Positions 1,575-63,876 of a DNA stretch of 64,000 nucleotides are shown one piece after another. Under the pieces are notes generated by a model that was not told the DNA's origin, did no database searches, and saw nothing but the letters and a program-made list of their open reading frames with translations. The stretch is from Candidatus Gastranaerophilales bacterium. Lineage in GTDB: Bacteria; Cyanobacteriota; Vampirovibrionia; Gastranaerophilales; Gastranaerophilaceae. The first letter of the stretch is position 1. Every line of letters starts with the position of its first letter. The translations under genes and the position numbers were made by a program. The stretch lies in assembly GCA_944323955.1 (NCBI GenBank), contig CALUUK010000002.1:62001-126000 (forward strand). Reading direction: 5' to 3'.

Positions 1575-1758
1575 TTGCAGCCGTATAATATTGATTTTAT
1601 GTTCCGTTCAATAATAATGATTTTCTTAAACTCAACATAAAAGCACGGCAAACTCGGTCTTTAAGACCTCAAACAGTGCCGTGCCGTGTTGTCTGTTTCG
1701 TTAAAGAAAATTACATTATTATTTCAAGTCACTAAAAATCAATATTATACGGCTGCAA
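1575..1758. repeat. interspersed palindromic repeat, copy A (divergent)
   Basis: Two perfect 24-bp inverted arms (1575-1598 and 1735-1758, outer end TTGCAGCCGTATAATATT) enclose a structured core. The core has a GGTCTTTAAGACC palindrome and a CACGGCA/TGCCGTG pair. It keeps the skeleton of the copies at 5027, 62270 and 63700: AAACTCGG, a hairpin, CTCAAACAG.G, then TGTTG.CT and GTTAA. The arms are unrelated to those copies. It sits between the 59-aa gene and the convergent ABC ATPase gene, so it may also act as a terminator. It contains no reading frame of note. Confidence 0.7.
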
Positions 1759-5026: not shown

Positions 5027-5202
5027 TTTAACCCTAAATAATAAAATCTTCGCCGGATATTTTTTCCTATACTGCTAAACTCGGCACAAAGCTCCGCAAC
5101 TCGCACTAAAAGTGCTCAAACAGCGCTCCGCCCTGCTGTTGCCTCGTTAAGCATTATTACGGAAAAAATATATGCCATCAGATTTTATTATTTAGGGTTA
5201 AA
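5027..5202. repeat. interspersed palindromic repeat, copy B
   Basis: Perfect 23-bp inverted arms at 5027-5049 and 5180-5202 share the inner half AATAATAAAATCT with the copies at 62270 and 63700, but have their own outer half TTTAACCCTA. A second nested pair, ATATTTTTTCC and GGAAAAAATAT, lies inside. The core has a GCACTAAAAGTGC hairpin followed by GCTCAAACAGCGCTCCGC, identical in all three close copies. It lies directly upstream of the 4057 sigma-factor gene. No transposase is encoded. Confidence 0.9.
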
Positions 5203-5288
5203 TATATGCTAAAGTTCTTTAGTATATTAACTAAAAAACTGATTAATTCTTATGACGGAAGATTTTTTTTTGAGTTCCTGAAATTTTT

Positions 5289-50663: not shown

Positions 50664-50681
50664 AACAAATAAATAATAATA

Positions 50682-50826
50682 AATAAAAAATAAATAAAGG
50701 TTCATTGTGCAGTACAGTTAAACATCTTATTGAAGCAACAGCAAAGCGAGCGTTGTTTAGCGAGCTCGGGCTGAAATTAGATGTTATCTGTACGAAACAG
50801 CCGAACCGTATTTATTTTTTATTTAT
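50682..50826. repeat. interspersed palindromic repeat, copy C (divergent, reverse orientation)
   Basis: Outer AT-rich arms ending GGTTC (to 50703) and beginning GAACC (from 50802) are inverted copies with one mismatch and one gap. An inner pair GTACAG..ACATCT and AGATGT..CTGTAC lies inside. Read on the minus strand, the core CAACGCTCGCTTTGCTGTTGC matches the CAGCGCTCCGC..TGCTGTTGC block of the copies at 5027 and 62270. It follows dgkA. The rest of the gap to the helicase gene (50827-51074) holds the minus-strand hairpin at 50854 and a TATAAT at 51036, the probable helicase promoter. Confidence 0.65.
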
Positions 50827-50853
50827 ATTAAAAAATTATATTGAAAAATTGGT

Positions 50854-61626: not shown

Positions 61627-62271
61627 GTGTTAAAGACGGTAAAAACTGTAAAAACCCCGAAAGGTAACAAAATAGAACTTATTGAAACTCAAAATAACAA
61701 GTATGGTAAAACCGTACTTGTTATTGGGGTTTTTCATGGCGAAGAGCCTCAGGGCGAATATTTGATAAATGAATTTTTGAAATCTGATTTATCCGGCATA
61801 AGAAACAAACTGCTTTTTGTGCCTTGTTTGAACCCTGACGGAAAGAGCGTAAATAAAAGGCAAAATTCAAACGGAATTGATTTAAACAGGAATTTTCCCA
61901 CAAAAAACTGGAGACATACTGATAGCTCTGAATACTTTGGCGGGAATGCACCTAATAGTGAAGTTGAAACACGGTTTATGGTTGAGATTTTAAACGATTA
62001 TAAAATTGATGCTGTTTTGTCAATCCATGCACCTTTTAAAATAGTTAATTATGACGGGCCTGCTAAAGAATTGGCGGATAAAATTTCCGAATTAACAGGT
62101 TATCCCGTGCAGGCGGATATCGGTTATCCCACTCCGGGCAGTTTTGGTAATTATTCGGGAGTTGAGCGGCAAATTCCTACAATAACTTTAGAACTTCCCG
62201 AAGATGTTACAAATGAGAATCTATGGATTGTTAATAAGCCTGTATTTGATTATTTGGCGTATGAATTTTAA
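61627..62271 (+). CDS. M14-family zinc amidohydrolase (MpaA-like)
   Basis: The product of about 214 aa has the zinc carboxypeptidase marks: VIGVFHGEEPQGEYLI (HxxE), KRQNSNGIDLNRNFPTKNW with the substrate-binding Arg and Asn-Arg, AVLSIHAPFKIVNYDG (third zinc His) and a C-terminal ITLELPEDVTNENLW with the catalytic Glu. Relatives such as MpaA cut peptide-linked cell-wall fragments. The start is unsure: GTG 61627 has GGGTG upstream, while TTG 61606 would overlap pepA by 11 nt. There is no signal peptide, so it acts in the cytosol, plausibly finishing peptides with PepA. Confidence 0.85.
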   Translation: MLKTVKTVKTPKGNKIELIETQNNKYGKTVLVIGVFHGEEPQGEYLINEFLKSDLSGIRNKLLFVPCLNPDGKSVNKRQNSNGIDLNRNFPTKNWRHTDSSEYFGGNAPNSEVETRFMVEILNDYKIDAVLSIHAPFKIVNYDGPAKELADKISELTGYPVQADIGYPTPGSFGNYSGVERQIPTITLELPEDVTNENLWIVNKPVFDYLAYEF

Positions 62272-62447
62272 ATTTTATAAATAATAAAATCTTCAGCCGG
62301 ATATTTTTTCCTATACTGCTAAACTCGGCACAAAGCTCCGCAACCCGCACTAAAAGTGCTCAAACAGCGCTCCGCCATGCTGCTGCCTCGTTAAGCATTA
62401 TTACGGAAAAAAATATATGCCATCAGATTTTATTATTTATAAAATTT
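62270..62447. repeat. interspersed palindromic repeat, copy D
   Basis: Perfect 23-bp inverted arms at 62270-62292 and 62425-62447 carry the shared inner half AATAATAAAATCT and their own outer half AAATTTTATA. The core is nearly identical to that at 5027-5202 (GCACTAAAAGTGC hairpin, GCTCAAACAGCGCTCCGC, TGCTGCCTCGTTAAGC). The left arm starts inside the stop codon region of the M14-type gene. The remainder of the 303-bp gap before efp is AT-rich with no other feature than a possible efp promoter. Confidence 0.9.
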
Positions 62448-62574
62448 ATTAATTATTAAGCATATCTGATATACATATGTTTGTTACGCTATGGTGGTTA
62501 CAATCTATGAAAAATTAAAAGTTTATGTTATATTTTATGAGAAAGAATAATTATTATTAGAAAAGGACGAATGA

Positions 62575-63699: not shown

Positions 63700-63876
63700 G
63701 ATTTTTATAAGTAATAAAATCTTCTGCTTGATATTTTTTCTTATAATGCTAAATTCGGCTAAAAGCTCCGCAACTCGCACTAACAGTGCTCAAACAGCGC
63801 TCCGCTTTGCCGCTGCCTCATTAAGCATTCTCACTGAAAAAATATATGCTGTCAGATTTTATTACTTATAAGAATC
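63700..63876. repeat. interspersed palindromic repeat, copy E
   Basis: Inverted arms at 63700-63722 and 63854-63876 match at 22 of 23 positions. They share GTAATAAAATCT with the other close copies (AATAATAAAATCT there), and their own outer half reads GATTTTTATAA. Note that the inner G for A change is present in both arms. The core keeps GCTCAAACAGCGCTCCGC and the TTAAGCATT block. It lies 99 bp after accB. Confidence 0.88.

Follow-up and report, generated by a model that had tools for sequence, protein, structure and literature searches.

Three copies of a palindromic element found in one stretch of DNA from Candidatus Gastranaerophilales (hereafter the window, 64 kb out of a 1.96-Mb genome in 28 contigs) raise the question of how the two arms of a hairpin can stay complementary within each copy while differing from one copy to another. 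The initial annotation had proposed three answers: insertion of the element into existing palindromes, correction of the arms against each other, or selection for base pairing. Copy 1 (5027-5202, plus strand) is located in a presumed leader, with a promoter-like region on one side and a sigma-factor gene on the other. Its left arm (5027-5049, plus strand) is composed of an outer 10 bp, TTTAACCCTA, and an inner 13 bp, AATAATAAAATCT, and its right arm (5180-5202, plus strand) is the exact reverse complement of the left one (arm sequence TTTAACCCTAAATAATAAAATCT, 23/23 positions paired). A motif composed of GGAAC(T/A)C and CGTC, separated by about 16-18 bp, is present on the minus strand at about 5253-5278 of the window, and also upstream in L087-L115 (L and G numbers are our handles for loci and genomes). 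This motif is conserved upstream of the sigma-factor gene of copy 1 in most of the genus and resembles promoters of the ECF/stress-sigma kind; with the motif on one side and the start codon on the other, copy 1 would occupy the leader.

Copy 2 (62269-62448, plus strand, with arms at 62269-62292 and 62425-62448) has all 24 of its arm positions paired. Its core is 97% identical to that of copy 1, whereas outside of the shared unit the two copies are unalike, with sharp boundaries. The stop codon of an MpaA-like gene located upstream coincides with the start of its left arm. Copy 3 (63700-63876, plus strand, with arms at 63700-63722 and 63854-63876) is located downstream of accB, has a core 87% identical to that of copy 1 and exhibits a single mismatch in its arms (22/23 paired). 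The complementarity described by the initial annotation was thus recovered in each copy, as was the inner A-to-G change, which copy 3 carries on its two arms alike; the inner part common to the three copies is also real, but measures 13 bp instead of 12 (AATAATAAAATCT, replaced by AGTAATAAAATCT in copy 3). The unit common to the three copies corresponds to the two 13-bp arms and the sequence between them, bordered by TA on both sides in 3/3 copies. Beyond this unit, the outer 10 bp pair at 10/10 positions in copies 1 and 2 and at 9/10 in copy 3; a random pair of intergenic 10-mers reaches 10/10 with a probability of 2.6e-5, and at least 9 with a probability of 2.2e-4. These outer arms had been described as private to each copy, which is correct for copy 1, unrelated to the other two (2-3/10 positions agreeing), but not for copies 2 (AAATTTTATA) and 3 (GATTTTTATA), which agree at 8/10 positions on the left and 7/10 on the right. 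Had the outer arms undergone slow compensatory drift, one would not expect such a sharp edge between copies 1 and 2 next to cores that are 97% identical.

Searches with a covariance model derived from 13 copies detected relatives in 37 of the 41 genomes of the genus, with a maximum of 30 per genome, and a few weaker relatives in other genera of the same family. Copies 1-3 are members of a lineage-restricted superfamily of ~180-bp non-coding intergenic hairpins in Candidatus Gastranaerophilales, apparently undescribed so far; palindromic intergenic repeats are already known as a general kind, and it is this lineage-restricted family that is new. The window contains five members, two of them divergent and overlooked in the initial annotation. 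The fourth (1575-1758, plus strand, core 1586-1748) has perfect 24-bp arms (1575-1598 and 1735-1758), TTGCAGCCGTATAATATTGATTTT, which are unrelated in sequence to those of copies 1-3, and the fifth (50674-50830, minus strand, core 50682-50822) has arms of about 22 bp with one interruption and approximate ends. Elsewhere, members also occur as pairs in opposite orientation (e.g., L144, L157 and L039) and as tandem repeats (L140 and L148). At L140 (3262-4302, G024:C3), three elements follow one another in tandem at intervals of 440 bp, and a fourth copy of the unit is present in L199. At L135 (50-452, G001:C104), an element and its upstream flank are tandemly duplicated at the start of the contig, a duplication that close relatives do not have. 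Locus X (L167, L233, L237 and L285), a tRNA-adjacent gap, harbours element types and arms that differ by lineage, indicating that one site was reoccupied or that the element was replaced. A separate repeat of ~117 bp, GTCCGAGAAAATTTCGCGATAAGGAA...CACTGGATTAGATT, forms a clean filled/unfilled pair between L222 and L226 (near 548-660), being present in G027 and not in G014; it is related to repeats in L151 and L094.

Most types carry the apical motif AACTC-hairpin-TCAAACAG. The stems of the core covary and are interrupted by conserved internal loops, while the outer arms of about 20 bp have no consensus; the whole ~160-bp interior is likewise a covarying hairpin, a point absent from the initial annotation. 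In the alignment of A-type elements, 96.8% of 594 cells pair, and two-sided changes are found at 18 of the 46 pairs. They affect 66 cells, versus 9 cells with one-sided changes that keep a standard pair. None of 500 shuffles matched these values, either for cells paired or for two-sided changes, and two-sided cells never exceeded 8 when the structure was slid along the alignment. The apical motif CGTAACTC...TCAAACAGACGRRGC was found in 28 GTDB contigs, of which 25 belong to Candidatus Gastranaerophilales and the remaining three to one MAG, and in no IMG/VR contig. The exact core string had no match in GTDB genomes, the element had none in a phage collection, and Rfam scans of the window and the relatives yielded no matching family, just tRNA, 5S and 6S RNAs elsewhere. 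Integron attC sites, brought to mind by GTTAAGC/GCTAAAC boxes, were rejected: the boxes are not conserved in G032, and the neighbouring genes efp and accB are core genes.

Several known systems share features with these hairpins. ERIC, RUP and Correia (NEMIS) elements are intergenic imperfect palindromes of about 100-170 bp with terminal TA and defined terminal repeats. The resemblance extends to size, intergenic location, imperfect palindromy and the TA edges of copies 1-3, but the defined terminal repeats of those elements contrast with the lack of an outer-arm consensus here. The unit of copies 1-3 is bordered on either side by TA, a feature of MITEs related to IS630/Tc1-mariner, and these copies probably first spread by insertion at TA dinucleotides. 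An IS630-type (DDE_3) transposase was detected in none of 40 genomes of the genus. Among the genomes compared, copies 1-3 have no close unfilled ortholog in which a TA target duplication could be read (the nearest, G058, is too diverged), and the other loci are too diverged or deleted. REP/BIME/REPIN elements are also palindromic, intergenic and often arranged as inverted pairs of two types, but REPs are shorter, with 20-40 bp (PMC3733652); no Y1 (RAYT-type) transposase is present in the window's own genome. We make no claim that long hairpins survive here through absence of SbcCD. Indeed, although no genome passes the NCBIfam cut-off for SbcD, a 424-aa SbcD/Mre11-like nuclease is encoded below this cut-off at L287 (1483-2757), and the genus seems to have this divergent form only.

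The arms of the hairpins become re-matched after species separate. Since the chance expectation for counts of concerted arm changes is uncertain in A/T-only sequence, we compared arm identity within copies to arm identity between orthologs. If arms evolved independently from a matched ancestor, identity within a copy should not exceed identity between orthologs. For diverged orthologs (flanks 76-90% identical), arm identity is 0.94 within a copy versus 0.83 between species, the within value being higher in 11 of 16 pairs, with 3 ties (Wilcoxon p=0.002); in four of these 16 pairs, the locus is occupied by elements of different types, and without them the difference remains but is weaker (7 higher, 3 ties and 2 lower). 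These four pairs imply that replacement of the whole element contributes too. Close orthologs (flanks 93-98% identical) show the reverse, with 0.93 within a copy and 0.97 between species, and arm mismatches can persist in them. Mutations thus start on single arms; divergence of the two arms comes first, and re-matching follows. Clear cases involving the same element are L168/L043, L172/L177, L169/L156, L224-L228/L234-L236 and L170/L175. For instance, ATAAAAATCT corresponds to ATTAAAATCT on both arms between L168 and L043, both arms of L177 carry GCATAAG where both arms of L172 are AATAAAAA-like, and a homologous core is framed by CAGGATTATAAG in L234/L236 versus AATGAAAAAATATAAT in L224/L228. 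At the L164/L176 locus, both arms are AATAATCCAATAT in G022, and both are AATAATACGATAT in G033 and G016.

The core also flips relative to its flanks. With orientation called as the strand that scores higher with a model that is almost palindromic, and checked by eye at four loci, the core is inverted at about half of the comparable loci, i.e., those with both flanks aligned. Seven inverted loci carry a single element (L182; L219; L188 versus L163/L171; L160; L174 versus L162/L170; L220; L170/L175), and at L039/L040, where the flanks are 97.4% identical, a pair of elements is flipped as a unit. The flanks of inverted loci are 97.0% identical for L182/L172, 95.9% for L220/L227 and 94.9% for L219/L228, which makes these flips recent. 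Non-inverted cases are loci 14, 16 and 18, the two halves of the L144/L157 pair and locus 19, at which the arms are degenerate, pairing is lost and the element has kept one orientation at the same place in five species. The genomes being short-read MAGs, a palindrome assembled wrongly might account for one apparent flip, but this is hardly plausible for seven loci. At L143/L144/L159, a chromosomal rearrangement between G034 and G025 has its breakpoint at a hairpin pair, since the sequence to the left of one element pair of G025 is fused, in G034, to sequence flanking a different pair.

Replication template switching between the two arms is probably the best explanation for the re-matched arms and flipped cores taken together, and we infer that it caused both. 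The hairpin would stall or misdirect DNA synthesis, and the polymerase could then switch template from one arm to the other, rewriting one arm from its partner and restoring pairing. Rewriting that at times reaches into the flanking DNA would produce copy-specific arms, and switching between strands would leave the core inverted. In published cases, template switching in inverted repeats results in arm homogenisation and spacer inversion (PMC8604942) and can generate or mend a hairpin stem in a single step (PMC8794818). Template-switched quasi-palindromes and inverted repeats from yeast, E. coli and RNA genes exhibit the same arm homogenisation, one-step stem creation or repair and spacer inversion as found here (PMC8604942, PMC8794818, PMC7202029). 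In the cases published for yeast coding sequences, one short repeat with 7-16-bp arms inverts a spacer of just a few bp, whereas the present superfamily is dispersed and shows the phenomenon at many loci, with arms of ~20 bp and a hairpin spacer of 140-200 bp. The outer 10 bp of copies 1-3 would have been written from one flank; the right arm of copy 2 mirrors a left arm that starts at the upstream stop codon, which is only a hint of flank copying. Perfect yet different outer arms in copies 1 and 2, despite 97% identity, require either frequent switching or arm formation at insertion. No single switch event was caught together with its donor flank, and the conserved mismatched loops in the core indicate that switching leaves some parts unhomogenised. 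Among the three options of the initial annotation, correction of the arms against each other is the one best supported, by re-matching after speciation and by core inversion.

Selection could instead keep the pairing, compensatory mutations being retained because the hairpin, as RNA or extruded DNA, would have a function, for example in terminating transcription from both directions, in RNA processing or as a site recognised by a mobilising protein; we judge this unlikely. The pairing pattern is general: the own-arm pairing score of 145 copies has a median of 17, far above the median of 8 for arms taken from different copies in different genomes. The arms are AT-rich, which leaves their alignments somewhat ambiguous. 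The narrow arm length (111 distinct arms, median about 21 bp, interquartile range about 19-23 bp) would be expected under selection, as would the strong covariation of the core stems with their conserved internal loops, the conservation of elements at the same intergenic loci across species with flanks 75-85% identical, and the A-rich left and T-rich right arms, which recall two-way terminators. However, mismatches in the 111 distinct arms comprise 19 G.U, 20 A.C and 48 others, and the similar numbers of G.U and A.C point to no strand bias towards RNA pairing, although such a bias could be hidden by transcription from either strand. Moreover, blocks of several bases change together, the clade with degenerate arms retains its element at locus 19, the leader of a sigma-factor gene (copy 1) is an odd place for a terminator, and selection alone does not flip cores. 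Pairing selection is thus a possible contributor to arm maintenance, but the arms have no G.U excess and the inversions are left unexplained, which favours template switching.

A more far-reaching reading, which we find quite improbable, is that these elements represent a distinct class of self-inverting hairpins whose arms are written from target DNA during insertion, one flank being copied into the other, and that they spread without a conventional transposase and act as orientation switches or genome-rearrangement points of these gut bacteria.

Insertion at the centre of pre-existing palindromes, the outer arms being the two halves of the target, is very unlikely. It would fit the sharp boundaries of copies 1 and 2 and the reconstructed sites of copies 1-3, which are centred on TA (TTTAACCC-TA-GGGTTAAA), and this mode of insertion has been proposed for IS1272 and YPAL (PMC5678879, PMC2229807). 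IS1272 (IS1182 family), which bears a transposase, targets inverted repeats of 21-38 bp and replaces the target repeat (PMC5678879). Such targeting would be one route to private paired flanks, but an element that replaces its target leaves no flanking arms, and the elements described here encode no transposase. YPAL (RU-2) of Yersinia is similarly palindromic, with about 168 bp; it generates target duplications of 3-26 bp, has no terminal TA, is not A+T-rich and inserts within or close to regions of dyad symmetry (PMC2229807). The palindrome that the initial annotation had suggested seeking at unfilled sites is absent at three orthologous loci, none of which corresponds to copy 1, 2 or 3 of the window. 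At the L164/L176 locus, G019, G026 and G063 lack the element, and the stop codon is followed by nothing more than a short gap (flanks about 85-90% identical); at locus Y, the genes of G019 are just 7 bp apart without it; and at the L168 locus, G010 and G022 have neither element nor palindrome. These unfilled loci may be ancestral gaps or clean deletions, several lineages having the element at the same place. Other apparently unfilled sites are deletions, with a partial element left (L276 and L283) or a short core-less hairpin (L272); the latter, in G063, can be read as an unfilled palindrome or as a deletion remnant. Furthermore, neither the 64-kb window nor 83 kb of other loci contains a perfect palindrome with arms of at least 9 bp, i.e., a ready pool of targets, and the concerted change of arms continues after insertion, which template switching accounts for and target choice does not. 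The proposal of insertion into existing palindromes thus found no support.

Finally, RecA-type recombination or gene conversion between inverted arms, or a dedicated recombinase, would both match arms and flip cores. This would agree with the inversions, found for about half of the loci compared and also at the level of pairs, and with copies at chromosomal rearrangement breakpoints (L143/L144/L159), but is highly improbable: freely varying arms offer no fixed recombinase site, the arms, at about 20 bp, are on the short side for homologous recombination, and plain crossing-over within them would leave pairing unextended into the flanks. The last two points favour template switching over plain recombination.

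Copy-specific paired arms are usually taken as proof of selection for RNA structure. Here, the members of one superfamily serve as natural replicates, dozens in number, of arm re-matching and core flipping between species, and stem maintenance driven by mutation can thereby be separated from selection by sequence data alone. The superfamily is also a warning that intergenic hairpins of bacteria may covary without any function as RNA, and a natural system in which to measure template-switch rates in uncultured bacteria. The observations fit a known mutational mechanism, displayed unusually clearly, and on an unusually large natural scale, in the hairpins of Candidatus Gastranaerophilales.
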